Assembly (NCBI GenBank): GCA_024639625.1
Contig: JAHEIA010000016.1
Span: 1 to 13,763 of the forward strand
Direction of reading: 5' to 3'
Length of the DNA: 13,763 bases
DNA from: Chromatiales bacterium
Lineage (GTDB): Bacteria > Pseudomonadota > Gammaproteobacteria > Chromatiales > Chromatiaceae
Positions 2,096 through 13,763 of the stretch are shown piece after piece. Within the stretch, counting starts at the first letter, position 1. Every line of letters begins with the position of its first letter. Position numbers and translations under genes: made by a program. A model generated the notes under the pieces. It saw nothing but the letters and a program-made list of their open reading frames with translations. It was not told where the DNA came from and made no database searches.

Positions 2096-2118
2096 GAAGC
2101 GAAATCTTTGTTCGCTTC
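2096..2118. repeat. Perfect inverted repeat upstream of the AraC-family gene
   Basis: The arms GAAGCGAA and TTCGCTTC (8 bp each) are separated by 7 bases (ATCTTTG). It ends 67 bp before the chosen ATG, so it is either an operator near the promoter or a stem-loop in the leader RNA. No T-run follows, which argues against a terminator. Confidence 0.42.
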
Positions 2119-2185
2119 GTACCCACAACTACACTATCGTTTATCGTTTGAAAGACTATTTCGAAGAAATCTAAAGACCCTAGCG

Positions 2186-3280
2186 ATGAGCACTCGGCGT
2201 GTCCCGAAACCGCTGCCGCCAAAGACACCTTGTGCAGGTTCCTTCGTCGTTGGCGGGTCACTACGGGCTGGGCCGCTGCTAGTCATTCCGCAGATGCTCG
2301 AGGAGCAGCGCCTGGATCCCAATCAGATCCTGGCGGAGATCGGCATCAAGCCAAACCTCTTCGCGGACCCGGAAAATATCATCTCATTCGCGACAGCGGG
2401 TCAGCTGTTGCAGCATTGTGCGCATCGGACTGGATGCCCACACTTCGCGCTGTTGGTTGGACAGAAAGGGGGGGCCGAGTCGCTCGGCTTGATCGGCCTC
2501 CTGGCCCAGAACGCACCCGATGTGGGTACAGCCCTGCAGGACATCATCCTGCATATGCACCTGCATGATCGGGGGGCCACCCCAACCTTGTCGGTATCCG
2601 GGGACGTAGCGGTGGTGAGTTATGCGATCTATCAACCGGGTGTGGTCGGAACGGATCACATCTACGACACCGCAATGGCGATCGCTTTCAACATCATGCG
2701 GGAGCTCGCCGGCCCTGCCTGGACGCCCGCAGAGGTGCGGTTCTGCCATTCCGCGCCGCGCGACATCCAGCCCTTCCGCCGGTTGTTCAGATCGCCGCTG
2801 CGCTTCGACGCCGAACAGTCGGCACTGGTCTTTTCCTCGAGCTGGCTGCGACAGCCGTTGCCCGGTTCGAACTCGCGGCTGCGCCAGATTCTCGAGGCCG
2901 AGGTCAATCGGCTCGAGAGCCAGTCGGGGGAGGACCTATCCGACCGGCTGCGCTGCGTATTGAGGAACCTGCTGGTCAGTGGAAGAGGCTCCATGGATGA
3001 GGCGGCACGGTTGCTCGCGCTGCATCGGCGCACACTCAACCGGCGGCTCCACGCGGAAGGGATCAGCTTCCAGCAACTGGTAGAGGAGACCCGATTCGAG
3101 ATCGCTCATCAGTTTCTCAGAGACACCAAGATGCCGTTGGCTGATATCGCGGCACTGCTCGACTATGCCGACGCCACGTCGTTCACTCGTGCATTCCGGC
3201 GCTGGTCGGGAACGACGCCCGGTGCCTGGCGGGAGGCGCTGCGGGACCCAAACCATCAAGGGCATAGGCCACCGAAGTAG
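2186..3280 (+). CDS. AraC-family transcriptional regulator with arabinose-binding-like N-terminal domain
   Basis: The product has 364 residues, typical of the OruR/ArgR-like branch of AraC regulators. The N-terminal two thirds match the Arabinose_bd-type sensor: L.IPQMLEEQRLDPNQILAEIGI, LFADPENIISF, ESLGLIGLLAQNAPDVGTAL and EVRFCHSAPRDIQPFRRLF, then LRFDAEQSALVF. The C-terminal 80 residues (about 270-352) hold the double helix-turn-helix: MDEAARLLALHRRTLNRRL.AEG.SF, then LADIAALLDYADATSFTRAFRRWSG.TPGAWR, the classic AraC signature. The start is ATG 2186. A TTG at 2108 would add 26 basic residues that do not fit the family and would overlap the inverted repeat. The ribosome site is weak (AAAGA). 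No inducer can be inferred; the divergent small exported protein is the most obvious target. Confidence 0.9.
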   Translation: MSTRRVPKPLPPKTPCAGSFVVGGSLRAGPLLVIPQMLEEQRLDPNQILAEIGIKPNLFADPENIISFATAGQLLQHCAHRTGCPHFALLVGQKGGAESLGLIGLLAQNAPDVGTALQDIILHMHLHDRGATPTLSVSGDVAVVSYAIYQPGVVGTDHIYDTAMAIAFNIMRELAGPAWTPAEVRFCHSAPRDIQPFRRLFRSPLRFDAEQSALVFSSSWLRQPLPGSNSRLRQILEAEVNRLESQSGEDLSDRLRCVLRNLLVSGRGSMDEAARLLALHRRTLNRRLHAEGISFQQLVEETRFEIAHQFLRDTKMPLADIAALLDYADATSFTRAFRRWSGTTPGAWREALRDPNHQGHRPPK

Positions 3281-7440: not shown

Positions 7441-8514
7441 CTAGCGCGTGGGGATGGTGAGCACCGGCCCGGATCGACTGCCGGCCGGGTCCAGCACCTG
7501 CGCATTCGCGAGGAGCTGCAGCATACGAAACCACTGCTTGCTCATCAGGTCGCCGTCCGCGATGTAATACCAGCGATCCTGGTACTCTACGACCAACCGG
7601 GCCTGCGCCGGCCGCGTCGCAGACGACAGGATACGGATACCCCGACCCGCGGGACCGGGCTCGGGATACTGTCTGGCAACCGACTGCAGGTCGGCGGGAA
7701 GGTCGATGCCGGCTGCGGCAAGCTGCATCAGGTGGAACAACGACCGCGTCTCGATCACGATCGCGCCGGGCGGCGGCGAGCCCACCGCCAGCTGGATTGG
7801 AACGACGGCGTCGTCGCCCTCTTGTGCGGGTTTCGGGATGCCGAGAAGCTCAAGCAACCGCGCTGCCTCGTGCGAGCTCGCCGGCGCGTAGCTGTGCAGC
7901 ACCATGGCGTAACCCTTCTTCGCACCTTCGACCCGCACCCAGTACAGACTGCCCCTCTTCTGCAGCTCGCCGATCAGCGCGGCGATCTCTCCGAAGCGGG
8001 GATCAGGTGCGAAGGCTGGCGACTCCAGAAAGTCAGGATTGCGGACGTTGTTTACGCGGCGGATCAGGGCGGTCCACGCCTCGCTGTGCTTGGACGCACC
8101 GTTGATCAGCAGGAGCGCGAGGTCGATAGGCGTCTCGCCCAGAATCTGGCGCATGATGCGGTCACCGCGGACCGGTGTATAGCTGATCGTGGGGTTCTGC
8201 TCGGTCTTAAGCGTGCCAGCAAAAGGGACCAGATTACCCTGGTAGTTCGCCGGCGAACCGAGGCCGGCGTTCACCGTCCCGCTGGCCGTCATCGAAACGT
8301 TGGCCGTGACCGAGGAGACCGTGAGGAAACCCACACTGTCGGCGAAACGCAGGCGCACGATGTTTTGCAGCAACTGTTCGTCGTTCGTGGCGAGGATGGC
8401 ATCGTTATAGGCGGGCCGTCCGCTGCGTAGGATCTCGGGCCCGAACCGGGCGCAGCCCGCGAGAGTCAGCAGCAGCGCACAGCCAATGACGATCAGCCTG
8501 ACGCTTCGACTCAT
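7441..8514 (-). CDS. Lipoprotein of unknown function, 357 residues
   Basis: The lipobox is LTLAGC with C21, followed by Ala. The mature protein starts RFGPEILRSGRPAYNDAILATNDEQLLQNIVRLRFADSVGFLTVSSVTANVSM. The part RPAYNDAI...NDEQLLQNIVRLRF is well ordered and looks like the family's conserved core, with arginines spaced on a helix. Later segments include RIMRQILGETPIDLALLLING, EAWTALIRRVNNVRN, TRSLFHLMQLAAAGIDLP and VEYQDRWYYIADGDLMSKQWFRMLQLLANAQVL. I have seen this arrangement in hypothetical proteobacterial lipoproteins but know no function. The ATG at 8514 has AGGAGA about 9 bases upstream. The 322-bp gap upstream suggests its own promoter. Envelope location is well supported; role is not. 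Confidence 0.85.
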   Translation of the reverse strand: MSRSVRLIVIGCALLLTLAGCARFGPEILRSGRPAYNDAILATNDEQLLQNIVRLRFADSVGFLTVSSVTANVSMTASGTVNAGLGSPANYQGNLVPFAGTLKTEQNPTISYTPVRGDRIMRQILGETPIDLALLLINGASKHSEAWTALIRRVNNVRNPDFLESPAFAPDPRFGEIAALIGELQKRGSLYWVRVEGAKKGYAMVLHSYAPASSHEAARLLELLGIPKPAQEGDDAVVPIQLAVGSPPPGAIVIETRSLFHLMQLAAAGIDLPADLQSVARQYPEPGPAGRGIRILSSATRPAQARLVVEYQDRWYYIADGDLMSKQWFRMLQLLANAQVLDPAGSRSGPVLTIPTR

Positions 8515-8836
8515 GCCGTTAATCTCCTGTGCCAGCCAACCGGCGCCCGCTCGGCGCCGGCGCTGAGCGACAACATGACTCGCCCGAAAGCACCCAGCAG
8601 GAAGCCAGCCTCTGCCGACGGAGGCGATCCCATCAGTTGGGTCCCGGGGTCGACACGGCGCCAAAAATAACGCTCACAGCGATCATTAGGGTCCTCTGAT
8701 GGGACACCTGGTTCACATGACTCGCCCCCCTCGAAGCACAACCGAGTGACATCCGTAGACCATCCGCGTCGCGCAACTCGCCCGCAACCGTGGCCCGTTC
8801 GCGGGCTATTCGAGGTCATCCCCTCCGGCCTGGGAC
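8515..8836. other. Intergenic region upstream of the 357-residue lipoprotein gene
   Basis: No credible gene is present. It contains a near-perfect GC-rich palindrome at 8548-8569 (one G·T pair) in what would be the lipoprotein leader, a 13-bp direct repeat ACATGACTCGCCC at 8573-8585 and 8715-8727, and a UUCG-capped hairpin at 8790-8809 just past the stop of the small protein A gene. No clear -35/-10 pair is seen. Confidence 0.5.
8790..8809. terminator. Short hairpin downstream of small protein A, possible terminator
   Basis: GCCCG-TTCG-CGGGC (8793-8806) makes a 5-bp stem with a stable tetraloop, extendable by three pairs including wobbles. It begins about 27 bases past the stop of the minus-strand gene. 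No T-run follows in that direction, so it is weakly supported. Confidence 0.28.
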
Positions 8837-9280
8837 TCAGGGCTTCGCCGACACGTAGACCAGGTTGTTGCCCTGGAAGGCAGCCCGGTAATACACGCCC
8901 GGCGCACAATTATAGTACTCGATACCGTTGATCGGGGTTGCAACGCAGCCGGCCGGCAGCGCATGCACAACGGTTCCGAGGGGCACCGAACCACTGCTTG
9001 TCGGTGGCGGGGGTGGCGCGCTCGCAGTAGCAGTGGTCGCGGCGGCGGTTGTCGCGGCCGCGGCGTTGGCGTCCGCGGCTGCAAGGGAGTCCATGTACAG
9101 GGCCCGCCTTGTCGTGCGCCTGGCGACCCCGGCGAAGGAAAGCGGCGTGAAGGGAAGGCCGATGATGGCGGCAGCCTCCCGCACGAGGCCCAAGCGGAAC
9201 GGCGGCTGCGGAGAAAGATCCGCGAGCAAAAGCATCACGAGGGCAAGACCGAGTACGAGCACTTTCACTGGCTTCTTCAT
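8837..9280 (-). CDS. Small exported two-cysteine protein A with an AGVARRT motif (module copy A)
   Basis: The 147-residue product has four parts. A hydrophobic N-terminus (residues 5-20) leads to EAAA-IIG, a possible cleavage site. A short conserved stretch, GLPFTPLSFAGVARRTTRR, covers 41-59. A low-complexity Ala/Thr then Pro linker covers about 66-94. The compact C-terminal domain at 99-147 reads PLGTVVHALPAGC, GIEYYNC, YYRAAFQGNNLVYV. C112 and C125 are 13 apart and could form a disulphide. The C-terminal domain matches small protein B at 33 of 47 aligned positions. I recall small alphaproteobacterial proteins with the same TPxSxAGVxRRT stretch and a C-terminal LPxGC...YYxC domain, without known function. 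It lies 15 bp after DUF2092-A, so the two are surely co-transcribed. Confidence 0.86.
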   Translation of the reverse strand: MKKPVKVLVLGLALVMLLLADLSPQPPFRLGLVREAAAIIGLPFTPLSFAGVARRTTRRALYMDSLAAADANAAAATTAAATTATASAPPPPPTSSGSVPLGTVVHALPAGCVATPINGIEYYNCAPGVYYRAAFQGNNLVYVSAKP

Positions 9281-9295
9281 TGCACGCTCCTTCGC

Positions 9296-10072
9296 CTAAT
9301 CCGATCGGGCCCGCTTCGCGCCGCGGGGCAGAAACTCGATCTGCGTCGCATCGCTGGACGGAGTGAATGCGAACGCCCCGTCGTCCAAGTCCGGCGCGAG
9401 GTCCCACTCGTTCATGGTCACGGTGAACTGCGGCGAGCCTGCGATGTCGGTCGAGGTAATCACGAGCTTGCACGGCAGTGGCTTGTCACCTTCCTGGATC
9501 CAGATCTGCCAGTCCACATGCGGGGCGCGAAAAGCCAGATGATCGCAGCGCATGCCTCCCACCACGTCCTTGCCGACGACGAAGCCGGAGGTCACGTCCT
9601 GCATCAGGATTTCGAACGCGTTCTTGTAAAGCAGATCCCCCGCGGGGGCGATGATGCCCAGCGTCTCCCGGGCGAAGTCGAGCGTCTCTTCCAAGGTAGC
9701 GGGCGCATCGGCGGTCGCATAGTAGCCCTCGCTCGGGTTGAACAGCGCGAGCGATTGGCCATCGTAATAAAAGACCTGCTCCACCAAATCGCCGTGACGC
9801 TCGGCCCGCAGCTTATTCGGCCGCTGCACCGAGAGCACAGCCGCCTGATCGAATTCGAGCTTCTGCCCCGAATCGAGCACGCCCTCGATGGTGCTTTGGG
9901 CGTGCACTGTGAACCGCTTCTGGCCGGCAAGGTAGGTGGTTGCCGCCTGCAACAACCCCTCGGCCTGCGGGTCGATTCCCGGGGGCTGGGCAAGGGCTGT
10001 GCGGGCCGCTACCGCCGCGGAGAGTAACGTAGCCAGAGAAATGGCCCACCAGCGCCGATGTTTGTCGAACAT
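9296..10072 (-). CDS. DUF2092 family periplasmic protein, copy A
   Basis: The 258-residue product has a signal peptide (WWAISLATLLSAAVAARTALA, cleavage before QPPG). From residue 34 it follows the DUF2092 pattern: LLQAATTYLAGQKRFTVHAQ, VLDSGQKLEF, QRPNKLRAE, VFYYDGQSLALFNP, YYATADAPATLEETLDFARETLGI, CDHLAFRAPHVDWQIWI and PLPCKLVIT. I recall the family as related to LolA/LolB/RseB-type folds with a hydrophobic cavity; ligand and role are undescribed. Over residues 34-206 it matches DUF2092-B without gaps at 95 of 173 positions. The ATG at 10072 has AGGGG 9 bases upstream; 30 further in-frame residues upstream precede the signal peptide and were excluded. It is 77 bp after the FadL-type gene and 15 bp before small protein A. 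Confidence 0.9.
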   Translation of the reverse strand: MFDKHRRWWAISLATLLSAAVAARTALAQPPGIDPQAEGLLQAATTYLAGQKRFTVHAQSTIEGVLDSGQKLEFDQAAVLSVQRPNKLRAERHGDLVEQVFYYDGQSLALFNPSEGYYATADAPATLEETLDFARETLGIIAPAGDLLYKNAFEILMQDVTSGFVVGKDVVGGMRCDHLAFRAPHVDWQIWIQEGDKPLPCKLVITSTDIAGSPQFTVTMNEWDLAPDLDDGAFAFTPSSDATQIEFLPRGAKRARSD

Positions 10073-10149
10073 GGTCAATTCCCCTCTTTCCTTTGTGTTC
10101 GCGTGCTGTCCCCTTGTTGCACCGCCTGTGCAGCGCGGGGCGGCGCTTG

Positions 10150-11472
10150 CTAGAACTGCCAATTATAGTAGCCGGCGAGGAAGATGATTCCGGTGTTATC
10201 GTAAGAGCCTTCGAGGTTCCCGCGCCCGCCCAGTGCAACCGGCGCCGTGCTCTGCAGGTTCGTATCGAGTGTCCCACCGTACTGGTACTCCGCCGCGATG
10301 CCCCAGTAGGCCGTCCTGCTCAATTGCTGCTCACCGCCGACACCGAAGCGCCAGGCTTTTCCTATCGGGAGCAGAGGCGAGACGTCCGAGCTGCCCTGAA
10401 AGCTGGAGTCATAGGCAACGCCGAAGTTGAGCAGCCAGGGGTCGCTCAGGCGGTATTGCGCCCCCAACGCGACATGCCACGTGTCTTTTAAATCCAGGTC
10501 GGTCTTGATGCTCCTGGGATCACTCGTATCGTCTATGCCGAGCTGCACCTGGCCGAACTCCGACCAGTCCTGCCAGCCCACGCTGCCGAGCACCGCCCAG
10601 CGGTCGTTCACCTGAGTGAAGACGCTGCCCATCACCTGTTGCGGGACCTTGATACCGACCTTTATCTTGGAATTCAGCAGCCCGCGATTGCCCAATACTG
10701 TCTCGAGCCCGGGGGCGAGATTCGAAAACTTGGCGCGGGACTTGAAGTCGAGATCGACCTGCGAGTTCCAGGTGAGTCCGAGCCGAGTGCCTTCGTCGAT
10801 CTCGTAGAGCAGACCGAGGTTGGCGCCCCAGCCCCAGGTCTCGTCGTCGAGCTTGAGCCGGCCGTCCCCGAAGCGGGGGGCGACGTTGTTGATCGCCACC
10901 TTGTTGTCGTAGATCCCGTACATGGCGTTCAGGCTCGCGCCGAGCGAGAGCTTGTCGGTGACCTTGTAGGCGATCGAGGGCAGGAAGGAGATGCCGAGCA
11001 ACGTCCCCGTCTGGACATAGTAGCGTCCGGCCCAGTCGTTATCGTACTCGAGGGGAGCGCCGAAATTGCCGGTGAGGCCGAACCCGAGTTTGAGATCCGG
11101 CGACACACTATAGCTCAGGAACCCGCCCCCACCGACGAACCACCCGTTCGACCCGATCGGACGGCCACCGTCTTCGGTGCCGAGACCAGGCGAGGTGCCC
11201 GAGCCGATAGAGAACTTGGTGTTCGCCCAAAACACCTGTCCCGCCAAGAGGACTTGTCTGCCATCGAGCCGCGTCATGCCGGCGGGGTTGGTGAGCACCG
11301 TCGAGGCATCCTGCGCCCGCGCGCCGTAGCCCGCAGACGCTAGACCGACGTCCGCTGTACCCACCTCGTATGCGATGAGGCCACCGGCGCCTGCCGGAAG
11401 CGCGCTTGCACAGAGCGCGAGGGCCGCGGCCACGCGTTGCGCTCCAGTCCTCGAAACTCGTCGAATGATCAT
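10150..11472 (-). CDS. FadL/TodX-type outer-membrane channel for hydrophobic compounds
   Basis: The 440-residue product has a signal peptide (AAALALCASALPAGA, cleavage before GGLIAYE). The mature N-terminus carries the OMPP1/FadL/TodX signature: YEVGTADVGLASAGYGARAQDASTVLTNPAGMTRLDG, as in FadL's AG.A..A.DAST...NPAGMTRL plug region. Then come alternating barrel strands (LSLGASLNAMYG, TRLGLTWNSQVDLDF, WAVLGSVGWQDWSEF, WHVALGAQYRLSDPWLLNFGVAYD). It ends in NWQF, the terminal aromatic expected for BAM insertion. FadL proteins let long-chain fatty acids or aromatic hydrocarbons cross the outer membrane by lateral diffusion. The ATG at 11472 has AGGAGA nearby. It sits between the two copies of the DUF2092 plus small-protein pair, with 446 bp of apparently non-coding DNA upstream, so it may have its own promoter. 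Confidence 0.92.
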   Translation of the reverse strand: MIIRRVSRTGAQRVAAALALCASALPAGAGGLIAYEVGTADVGLASAGYGARAQDASTVLTNPAGMTRLDGRQVLLAGQVFWANTKFSIGSGTSPGLGTEDGGRPIGSNGWFVGGGGFLSYSVSPDLKLGFGLTGNFGAPLEYDNDWAGRYYVQTGTLLGISFLPSIAYKVTDKLSLGASLNAMYGIYDNKVAINNVAPRFGDGRLKLDDETWGWGANLGLLYEIDEGTRLGLTWNSQVDLDFKSRAKFSNLAPGLETVLGNRGLLNSKIKVGIKVPQQVMGSVFTQVNDRWAVLGSVGWQDWSEFGQVQLGIDDTSDPRSIKTDLDLKDTWHVALGAQYRLSDPWLLNFGVAYDSSFQGSSDVSPLLPIGKAWRFGVGGEQQLSRTAYWGIAAEYQYGGTLDTNLQSTAPVALGGRGNLEGSYDNTGIIFLAGYYNWQF

Positions 11473-11918
11473 CCGCTTCTCCTGATTACACTGCCACAAT
11501 TTCATCAAGCGTGCCGCTACCTCGTAAAAGATTTCTTTGGAACATCCGAGGCAAAAATCGATTCGCAAATGCGGCAGCCTATTTCGCGGCTACCGCCGCT
11601 CGTTCGCACCGCACTTGGAGTAGCCGCAGTTGCTTCTCGCAAACGAACCTCTCCTCTTTTCCAGTACGAGGCTTCGCTAATCTCAACGTAGCTCGGTATC
11701 CAGCGGCACTCCCCCGTCCGCTGTCCAGCAGTGCTTCACCTGACTGACTGGCGCCACAGCTGCATAGCTGCCTTGCGCACGCACTTCAGAGCCGAGCAAA
11801 TCGGGTCCTGCGACCGCGTAGTTCCTCCAGCTACTCTACCCGCGCGGGCAGCGGTCGGACGGCTACGACGCCGGGCACCCGAAGGTGACCCGGCTCGGTT
11901 ACTGCTTCTTCGACTCAC
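11473..11918. other. Intergenic region between the FadL-type gene and small protein B
   Basis: These 446 bases contain no gene I can support on either strand. A strong hairpin lies at 11870-11894 just past the stop of the small protein B gene. The rest should hold the promoter of the FadL-type gene, but no convincing -35/-10 pair was found near the ATG. Confidence 0.5.
11870..11894. terminator. GC-rich hairpin after small protein B, possible terminator
   Basis: GCCGGG-CACC pairs with GGTG-(A)-CCCGGC around the loop CGAA: ten base pairs with one bulged A. It starts 24 bases past the stop of the minus-strand gene. Transcribed leftward it is not followed by a T-run, so it may attenuate or stabilise the mRNA end instead of terminating. 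Confidence 0.4.
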
Positions 11919-12374
11919 TCACGGCTTGGCCGTGACATAGACCAGATTGTTCCCCTGAAAGGTTGCACGGTAGAAGTTGCCGCCGCAATAGTAGTACTCC
12001 ACGCCACCCACCGGGGTTGAGGTGCAGCCTCCAGGGAGGCTGGATACCACGGTCCCCAGCGGCAAGGGCTTGCCATCGGCTGCAGGGGGAGGCGCTGCGG
12101 CAGGTTGCGGCTGGGCCGCAGGGGCCTGCTGTTGCGCGGCCGCCGCCTGGGCACCCGCGGCTGCAGCTTCGTCGGCCGCGGCCACCGTTGCCGTGGTGGC
12201 GACCGCCGCGGTGCCGACAACCGCCCAGCGACGCGCGTGGCGACGCCAGACGCCCAAGATCGCATGAGCGTCCTGCATCAGCGCAAAGCCGAAGCGACTA
12301 TTTGGAGGTGCGTCCCCCATGAGTAGCAGGACAATGGCGGTGCTGACTAATAATGTATTCCGGATCGTCTTCAT
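11919..12374 (-). CDS. Small exported two-cysteine protein B (module copy B)
   Basis: The 151-residue product is a paralogue of small protein A. The N-terminus (hydrophobic 7-19, then RFGFALMQDAHA-ILG) parallels copy A's PPFRLGLVREAAA-IIG. The following motif is shortened: copy A's GLPFTPLSFAGVARRTTRR becomes GVWRRHARRW. An Ala-rich then Ala/Gln/Pro-rich linker covers about 55-100. The C-terminal domain at 105-151 (PLGTVVSSLPGGC, VEYYYC, FYRATFQGNNLVYVTAKP) keeps both cysteines 13 apart (C117, C130). The ATG has GGAG about 8 bases upstream. It starts 20 bp after DUF2092-B, the same arrangement as in copy A, and belongs to one operon with DUF2092-B and the Tat-signal gene. Function unknown. 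Confidence 0.86.
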   Translation of the reverse strand: MKTIRNTLLVSTAIVLLLMGDAPPNSRFGFALMQDAHAILGVWRRHARRWAVVGTAAVATTATVAAADEAAAAGAQAAAAQQQAPAAQPQPAAAPPPAADGKPLPLGTVVSSLPGGCTSTPVGGVEYYYCGGNFYRATFQGNNLVYVTAKP

Positions 12375-12394
12375 GTGCTTGCTCCAATTGGGTT

Positions 12395-13177
12395 TCAGCG
12401 ACTAGGGGCGCTGCCGGCATCGAGCCGCATGAACGGAATCTCCTTCGCCCCCTCGGGTGGCGCGAAGCTGAAGCTGGTATCCGCCACAGACTCGCCGACT
12501 GCCCAGTCGCTCATCACCGTGCTCACGCTCAACAGCGCAGGGGTTCCGGTATCGGTGACGACGTACTTGTAGGGTAGCGGCTGACCGCCGGTCGCAACCC
12601 AGACCTGAAAATCGACCCCCGGGCGGCTGAAGGCCAGATGATCGCACTCCACCCCGTTAATCGCCGACTTGCCGATCACCATCGCGGAGGTCACATGCTC
12701 CATGAGGAGTTCGTAGGCGTTGCGGTAGACCAGGTCGGCGACCGGGACGATGAGTCCAAGGGATTCGCGCGCGAAGTTGAGCGTGTCCTCGATCGTCGCC
12801 GGTGCCGCTTCCGTCGCGTAGGCCTTCGCGGCCGGGTCGTACAGCGTCAGGGTCTTGCCGTCATAGTAGAAGGACTGGCTCACCAGATCGCCCGTGCGCT
12901 CGGCCCGTAGCTTGTCCGGCCGAGTCACGGTGACGCTCGCAGAGACGTCGAAGTCGACCCTTTGTCCCGAGTCGAGCAGATCCTCGATCGTGTTCTGCGT
13001 GTGCAGGCTGAACTGTTGCCGACTGCCGAGGTACTCGGTCATCCGCTGCAGAGCCTGTGTGGCGTTCGGGTCCACCCCGGCCGCCTGGGCGCCCGAGCCT
13101 GCCGGAACCGCGATCGCTACCGCCATTGCGGCGGCCGCGAGCACGCCCGCAGCGGTCATCGCATTGGTTGCCTTCAT
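12395..13177 (-). CDS. DUF2092 family periplasmic protein, copy B
   Basis: The 260-residue product has a signal peptide (AAGVLAAAAMAVAIAVPAGSGAQA, then AGVDPN). The family pattern follows: LQRMTEYLGSRQQFSLHTQ, LLDSGQRVDF, TRPDKLRAERTGDLVSQSF, YYDGKTLTLYDP, YATEAAPATIEDTLNFARESLG, CDHLAFSRPGVDFQVWV and PLPYKYVVT. This copy is closer to the DUF2092 pattern as I remember it (RMTEYL, YYDGKTLTLYDP) than copy A. The ATG at 13177 has AGAGGA about 9 bases upstream; the longer reading to 13300 overlaps the upstream gene and places 41 arginine-rich residues before the signal peptide, so it was rejected. It lies 44 bp after the Tat-signal gene and 20 bp before small protein B, indicating a three-gene operon. 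Confidence 0.9.
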   Translation of the reverse strand: MKATNAMTAAGVLAAAAMAVAIAVPAGSGAQAAGVDPNATQALQRMTEYLGSRQQFSLHTQNTIEDLLDSGQRVDFDVSASVTVTRPDKLRAERTGDLVSQSFYYDGKTLTLYDPAAKAYATEAAPATIEDTLNFARESLGLIVPVADLVYRNAYELLMEHVTSAMVIGKSAINGVECDHLAFSRPGVDFQVWVATGGQPLPYKYVVTDTGTPALLSVSTVMSDWAVGESVADTSFSFAPPEGAKEIPFMRLDAGSAPSR

Positions 13178-13221
13178 CGTGTTTGTCCTCTTGCTTCCGT
13201 TGAATAGCACACGCAGGCCGG

Positions 13222-13755
13222 CTACCGCCAGCCGACTCCGCGACGCCCCACCCCGACGCCGTGAAAGCCGGGGCCGACACCGCCGCCCACACCGATCCAA
13301 TCGATGAACAACGCAGTCGCACCACCGGATTGGGGCATCGTCCCTTCGACAAGCTTGTACTCGTAGACCATGTCATTGCCGTCAATGACGGGATGGCTGA
13401 TCTCTACTACGGCTAGAGTGTTTTCCGCCTGCCCCGACTCCAACACCGAAAGCGTGGCGTTGGGCGGGTCGGCGGCAAAGTTATCCGGTCCCTCGCCCGC
13501 CTTCCATTCGTCCATGTAGGCATCCATCGCAACGTGCCCGGCAATCCGTACCGGGCGGTCGGAGAAATACAGCGTTTGTTGGCTCACCTTGACCAGACGC
13601 AGGGTCTTGGCGTCGGCGTCCAGATCTTCCGCAGTCTGCACGAACATCAACTGGATCTTCTCGTCCCCCGCCTTTGCCAATGACGATGCGGAGATCAACG
13701 GGGTAGCCACCGCCAGCGGCGCCGCGGTGGCCATGAACTTGCGTCTTGTCGTCAT
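13222..13755 (-). CDS. Tat-exported protein of unknown function, FSDRPxR / DPPNAxLSVL family
   Basis: The 177-residue product begins MTTRRKFMATAAPLAVATPL, a twin-arginine signal (TRRKFM) with likely cleavage after SLAKA near residue 29. The mature part reads IQLMFVQTAEDL, LRLVKVSQQTLYFSDRPVRIAGHV, MDEWKAGEGPDNF and AADPPNATLSVLE, ending in ALFIDWIG. I recall a hypothetical proteobacterial family with FVQxA, TLYFSDRPxRxxGH, FxxDPPNAxLSVL and FIDxIG, in which the C-terminus continues RPLTPVSVAGVxRRT. Here that end is replaced by a glycine-rich tail, GVGGGVGPGFHGVGVGRRGVGWR. Tat export suggests folding, perhaps with a cofactor, before transport. Only eight bases lie upstream of the ATG, so ribosome site and upstream neighbour cannot be judged. 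It heads the operon with DUF2092-B and small protein B. Confidence 0.83.
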   Translation of the reverse strand: MTTRRKFMATAAPLAVATPLISASSLAKAGDEKIQLMFVQTAEDLDADAKTLRLVKVSQQTLYFSDRPVRIAGHVAMDAYMDEWKAGEGPDNFAADPPNATLSVLESGQAENTLAVVEISHPVIDGNDMVYEYKLVEGTMPQSGGATALFIDWIGVGGGVGPGFHGVGVGRRGVGWR

Positions 13756-13763
13756 TTGTCATT

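Follow-up and report, generated by a model that had tools for sequence, protein, structure and literature searches.

The closest described systems to the one reported here are LolA with LolB, RseB/MucB with the RseA/MucA peptides, and LprG and LppX, the last two being mycobacterial lipid-binding lipoproteins. RseB has two domains. To our knowledge, DUF2092 has so far been a LolA-like family without a function. Here we analyse DUF2092 genes and the small exported partners encoded beside them in a 13,763-nucleotide stretch of Chromatiales bacterium DNA (contig JAHEIA010000016.1; referred to as the window), which is the entire contig C601 of a 3.48 Mb draft genome comprising 626 contigs, with an estimated completeness of 88%. 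Two such pairs stand in the window and a third on contig C232 of the same genome. Comparative sequence evidence gives good support to the pair as a conserved module, which is widespread and, as far as we found, undescribed. DUF2092 is mentioned in the open-licence PubMed Central (PMC) text of PMC4520260 and PMC4020791, and DUF6515, a family resembled by part of the partner, in that of one paper.

A predicted LolA-like fold for DUF2092

DUF2092 copy 1 (12395–13177, minus strand; E = 1e-68) and copy 2 (9296–10072, minus strand; E = 1.7e-71) match PF09865 over its full length, with 231.4 and 240.4 bits, respectively, against a cut-off of 21.2. The AlphaFold model of copy 2 is a single domain with a mean pLDDT (predicted local distance difference test) of 93.8. 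Its predicted open β half-barrel with helices is that of LolA, LprG and RseB, placing the model in the LolA-fold superfamily; the LolA-like fold given for DUF2092 in the preliminary description of this DNA is thereby borne out by structure model and fold match.

LprG, of the same fold family, has been solved with lipids bound (rows 3mha and 4zra). From LolA, DUF2092 differs in falling far below the cut-off of 112 bits for the LolA equivalog TIGR00547 (copy 1 scores 14.6 bits and copy 2 has no match), and the genome has a LolA of its own. From RseB it differs in its single-domain model. Given this modelled fold and the kind of genes that neighbour it in the window, DUF2092 would be a carrier of a hydrophobic ligand. 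Short, weak PF09865 matches (E about 4e-6 to 9e-4), also present, are assumed to be ordinary LolA-type proteins; two archaeal control genomes match PF09865.

A conserved pair of genes

Partner 1 (11919–12374) and partner 2 (8837–9280), both on the minus strand, follow DUF2092 copies 1 and 2 at gaps of 20 and 15 bp, and the coordinates thus confirm two pairs of common order and strand. On C232, the stop of the third DUF2092 gene overlaps the start (ATGA) of a gene for a 70-residue partner.

Partners were sought in 127 sources (the window, L004, nine short loci and L051–L166) with a profile built from 15 seeds and iterated on those same loci, a nearby partner being scored by its C-terminal domain profile or by its motif (described below). 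Eighty named loci are the top 80 among 280 matches to a single pattern, a bias towards relatives of copy 2. DUF2092 is present in 119 of the sources, as 128 domains from several phyla, with one duplicate (L065 and L095 are the same DNA). A recognisable partner lies near 120 of the 128 domains, identified by domain only in 43 cases, domain and motif in 26 and motif only in 51, leaving 8 with neither; among the Pfam-selected class sample (L052–L075) it lies near 21 of 25. That each pair is a conserved unit, proposed from the window alone, is upheld by this gene-neighbourhood survey.

Six of the eight misses (L068, L075, L090, L098, L155 and L162) lie by eye where the contig ends 0 to 375 nt on, and except in L075 a partner-like start is visible, that of L162 having the motif and then a frame that departs from the partner. 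The other two, again by eye, have an RG-rich frame without the domain (L053) and a shortened frame (L058). Downstream of 5377 (minus strand) in L058, the short partner frame has seemingly lost the motif and kept the signal sequence and last residues. The order is DUF2092 then partner in nearly all loci; in L009 the partner comes first, and in L010 a motif protein stands on either side of DUF2092.

Across 370 genomes of the class, full-length DUF2092 (E below 1e-30) was found in 19, of which 16 have a partner-domain match below 1e-7; none of the 351 genomes lacking full-length DUF2092 has such a match. All but two of the 23 partner-domain matches (G000:C46 and G359:C13) lie at most 1.4 kb from a DUF2092, and all six motif-bearing genomes of this survey have DUF2092.

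Adjacency over several phyla, and at all three DUF2092 copies of this genome, would be hard to keep without a joint role. This makes it quite unlikely, in our estimate, that the two genes are linked but unconnected, with the partner a basic envelope peptide that has a disulfide bond and a function of its own (such as binding lipopolysaccharide or peptidoglycan) and is kept adjacent only by shared regulation, even with motif proteins in genomes without detectable DUF2092 and RG-rich versions in the same place speaking for it.

Two old pairs in one window

The identities first counted between the copies, 95 of 173 positions in the best ungapped stretch of DUF2092 and 33 of 47 in the partner C-terminal domains, were reproduced exactly. 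Overall, the DUF2092 copies share 111 of 231 residues and are about 48–49% identical; copy against copy, BLASTP gives E = 3e-81 for DUF2092 and 3e-25 for the partners, and in a control one DUF2092 copy was shuffled 500 times, the highest count being 36 identities against 113 for the real sequence.

The DUF2092 tree, built on 18 selected rows, puts copy 1 with L059, L067 and L070 (support 100/100) and copy 2 with L088 and L089 (97/91), separate clades with different outside relatives that agree with the earlier view of an old, maintained duplication. A recent local duplication is ruled out by these clades and by the 71% identity of copy 1 to L067, against only 49% to copy 2. The partner tree, built on 45 columns only and of low support, joins partner 1 to L059, L067 and L093 (92/94) and partner 2 to L088 and L070 (80/87). 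The proposed comparison of the two phylogenies gives partial agreement: the window copies sit with different outside relatives in both families, but the weakly supported partner tree misplaces L070, which is on the copy 1 side in the DUF2092 tree and on the partner 2 side in the other. Over 66 pairs, DUF2092 and partner protein distances correlate with r = 0.685, a value that none of 2,000 permutations reached (genome kinship being left in), and for 43 of the 66 the closest partner sequence is that of one of the three closest DUF2092. The duplication is old, and because both trees place the window copies with different outside relatives, the window pairs appear to be old types, mostly inherited as pairs.

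Anatomy of the partner

The partner consists of a signal sequence followed by the motif GRPxTPxSxAGVARRTxRR or, in other lineages, by an RG-rich stretch that replaces it, and usually has a two-cysteine end. In partner 2, the signal sequence ends in AAA and the motif reads GLPFTPLSFAGVARRTTRR, followed by a linker and a two-cysteine C-terminal domain; signal-sequence end and motif occupy 9098–9214 (minus strand; alignment A7, 27 sequences). Partner 1 has a signal sequence, the degenerate basic motif GVWRRHARR, an Ala/Pro-rich linker and a two-cysteine C-terminal domain; like its relatives in L059, L067 and L093, it keeps only a reduced basic motif. The small 'two-cysteine' protein originally described was thus correctly given its C-terminal domain, and what it missed is the N-terminal motif, present in copy 2 and degenerate in copy 1. 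A partner that is no more than a two-cysteine protein is ruled out by 51 of the 128 DUF2092 domains, where the motif is found downstream but the long cysteine domain is not.

Invariant in the 27 aligned motif partners, after A-x-A, are G19, P21, P24, S26, A28, G29, R32 and R33. Among the 76 motif partners encoded downstream of DUF2092, 73 retain the A-x-A (exceptions L087, L149 and L160). It resembles a cleavage site of signal peptidase I, which probably places the start of the mature chain immediately ahead of GRPxTP. For the shortest form, of 70 residues, this predicts a mature part of about 29 residues, ending in C-x6-C, an end found in 119 of 120 listed relatives of the short form; some short partners are without the cysteine pair (for example, those of L065, L112 and L164). 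The strings AGVARRT, SVAGVARR and TPVSVAGVARR were not found in open-licence PMC text.

The same features bear on a sensor pair like RseB–RseA or MucB–MucA, in which a membrane-tethered partner peptide would be covered or released by DUF2092 on a lipid signal. The A-x-A suggests that the hydrophobic segment is cleaved off, and few residues precede that segment in the partners read, so they have no cytoplasmic, sigma-binding part of an anti-sigma factor. With the single-domain model of DUF2092 set against the two domains of RseB, we consider such a sensor distinctly unlikely.

At E ≤ 0.001 the databases hold 5,214 relatives of the short form, 1,817 of partner 2 and 2,488 of the protein encoded at 13222–13755 (see below). 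None of the 120 listed relatives of each query shows a Pfam domain, and those that have a name are called uncharacterised or are named only for export. All 120 listed for partner 2 (itself included) carry the motif and the cysteine pair by pattern, and across an alignment of 38 partners of the long form P71, C74 and C87 do not vary. None of the partner members scanned reaches a Pfam or NCBIfam cut-off; the long-form partner of L150, for instance, scores 24.1 of the 95 bits for the NCBIfam VPA0510 family.

The C-terminal domain of the long form is modelled as a four-stranded sheet. The best PDB match has an E-value of 1.5, the query domain lying inside a largely disordered model, and a sequence search with the domain gave nothing below E = 0.37. 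It resembles part of DUF6515 (PF20125), whose cut-off of 24.9 bits none of eight scanned long-form partners reaches (partner 1, 24.3 bits; partner 2, no match; six others, 0 to 22.8). Six genomes that have no full-length DUF2092 (G105, G151, G235, G242, G288 and G325) give weaker partner-domain matches, and the five fetched, from all but G105, are DUF6515 proteins above the Pfam cut-off. As these weak matches are DUF6515, the partner domain is probably its distant cousin by sequence; it differs in its cysteine pair, which by eye the matched domains of the five DUF6515 proteins do not have. In L052, L078, L079, L080, L115, L121 and L131, at least two partner-type domains or DUF6515 relatives are joined in one larger protein, which in L052, L115, L121 and L131 adjoins DUF2092.

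The motif in a second exported family

Directly upstream of DUF2092 copy 1, and so next to pair 1, lies the gene for a 177-residue exported protein (13222–13755, minus strand) with a twin-arginine-like N terminus and no Pfam or NCBIfam family. Its relatives include longer proteins that are also matched by motif profile A7: a core ending in FIDIIG or similar is followed by xPxTPxSxAGVARR. The motif is present in 12 members (E = 5.6e-7 to 7.6e-11; AGVARE in L126), 11 of which were fetched for the motif, so that the set gives no family share; the twenty stretches fetched around motif matches left out, among others, G734:C1 and C2, G486:C68 and G531:C12. In alphaproteobacteria-like members an extra tail, ending in two cysteines, comes after the motif.

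The window protein itself has a glycine-rich GVGVGRRGVGWR tail in place of the motif. A loose pattern found no motif among its 120 listed nearest relatives (itself included), all of which have the glycine-rich tail, and the family members in L059, L125, L142, L161 and L164 are also without it. Judged by sequence, two unrelated exported families bear one motif, the second in some members only. In L067 there is a fragmentary match to the 13222–13755 protein at the equivalent place, and in L059 the homologue comes after the partner. Lipid-transport genes adjoin that homologue in L059 (8289–11728: PqiA, PqiA, PqiB, PqiC), as do PqiA, PqiA and PqiB in L164 (236–5388), where a FadL 77% identical to that of the window lies between; a search with the PqiA and PqiB proteins of L059 found matches in L059 and L164 only.

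Possible roles of the module

Our leading reading, held tentatively, is that a periplasmic hydrophobic-ligand carrier (DUF2092) and a small docking partner form a two-gene cell-envelope module. DUF2092 would shuttle a hydrophobic or lipid ligand within the periplasm. The partner would be exported and then disulfide-bonded, and its basic motif would dock on DUF2092, as we infer, or on an envelope surface; the docked partner could then be an adaptor or acceptor, as LolB is for LolA and the MucA/RseA peptides are for MucB/RseB. By eye, the small and basic partner is not LolB-like. A motif-bearing tail would let the second exported family use the same docking site.

Since the motif is shared with the tail of a second exported family, we also entertain, with more doubt, that the GRPxTPxSxAGVARRTxRR box is a portable envelope recognition tag. 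Once the signal peptide is cleaved, it would make up most of an approximately 30-residue secreted peptide that accompanies a LolA-like carrier, and it would also have been grafted into the C-terminal tails of exported proteins from an unrelated family, with one receptor for both (DUF2092 where present, otherwise another factor).

Several findings weigh against the two-gene carrier module. The genome has a separate, ordinary LolA (PF03548) elsewhere; the N-terminal part of the partner is predicted to be disordered (pLDDT about 50); and the neighbours of DUF2092 are mixed, including sulfatases, DUF1254/1214 and DUF3604. Partners also occur without DUF2092 in the fetched stretch (L169, L178–L186 and a second one in L148). 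Another such partner, from the genome to which the window belongs, is of the long form and has the canonical motif (L051:2969–3502, contig C46 of G000); the 8 kb retrieved there contain no DUF2092. In a phylum-wide survey of 397 genomes the motif is present in 21, 9 of them with full-length DUF2092 and 12 without any PF09865 match. Conversely, 11 of the 20 DUF2092 genomes of that survey, where the cysteine-domain profile was not run, are without a motif match; these may have RG-rich partners, G143 and G170 being the only two of the 11 inspected.

A motif strictly tied to DUF2092 is ruled out by the 12 genomes with no detectable DUF2092, which hold small motif proteins in 7 cases and the longer family alone in 5. 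The 'relay pair' of the preliminary description accordingly stands as a conserved pair and is an incomplete account, because the motif also occurs in such genomes and in the tail of another family.

The existence of partners without DUF2092 also counts against the partner being cargo, with DUF2092 as a dedicated chaperone that would ferry this small, basic peptide through the periplasm to the outer membrane or cell surface, as LolA does with lipoproteins. No lipobox is visible by eye in the partners read, which leaves a LolA cavity with no obvious feature to bind. Such a role would fit the LolA fold of DUF2092, the fact that the 70-residue form is strongly conserved in its mature part, and the nearly universal DUF2092-then-partner order (exceptions are L009 and one of the two in L010); on balance we think it unlikely.

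A near-constant small companion with thousands of database relatives gives DUF2092 a testable partner. One motif occurring in two exported families with no relation to each other would suggest that the bacterial envelope has a docking or sorting element not yet described.

Neighbouring genes

Between the window pairs lies an intact FadL/TodX-type outer-membrane channel gene without stops, as first described (10150–11472, minus strand; PF03349, E = 6.2e-59; 200 bits against a cut-off of 29.7; model positions 7–416 of 421). Its relatives were found near DUF2092 at only 3 of 117 other loci in tblastn searches with the window FadL, by which distant FadL types could be missed. This count does not support FadL as a regular companion of the pairs, and by this search it is rejected as part of the module; from sequence comparison, the window gene is a local companion.

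Hence we rate as very unlikely that the pairs relay substrates of the intervening channel with two specificities. Besides the position of FadL in the window, two other loci would suit such a relay: L164, where a full-length FadL stands beside the 13222–13755 homologue, and L089, where a FadL stretch separates two DUF2092 genes. Against it, the L164 channel gene and DUF2092 are on opposite strands, the L089 match covers only 86 residues, and the match in L054 is 29–38% identical in two pieces.

Same-strand genes extend beyond both pairs, upstream to 13222–13755 and downstream to 4208. After pair 2 comes an unclassified frame (7441–8514, minus strand) with no Pfam family and, by eye, a lipoprotein-like N terminus, a distant relative of which lies near DUF2092 in L053; farther along the minus strand follow, in transcription order, a Phenol_MetA_deg barrel, a Chalcone_3 protein and a patatin (Pfam). 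Scans of 8500–13763 gave no promoters and 3 terminator-like sites, against 4.0 in shuffles.

Around DUF2092 in the 110 sources longer than 4 kb, the gene clusters, each named from one scanned member, are sulfatase (29), an unclassified barrel-like protein (by eye; 23), DUF1254/DUF1214 (15), DUF1214 (12), an AraC-type regulator (11), DUF900 (10), FGE (8) and DUF3604 (8). No paper in open-licence PMC text combines two of DUF1254, DUF3604, DUF2092 and arylsulfatase. The scanned member of the AraC-type cluster has Arabinose_bd and HTH_18, 8 of its 11 members are on the opposite strand, and the AraC-type regulator of the window (2108–3280) belongs to it. A sulfatase lies within 10 kb of 15 of 53 full-length DUF2092 loci, against 1.08 expected (38 genomes, 143 sulfatases; counts read by eye from profile-search tables). 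Examples of sulfatases near DUF2092 are those of L055, L056, L058, L070 and L073, and FGE-type activators occur in 8 of the 110 sources.

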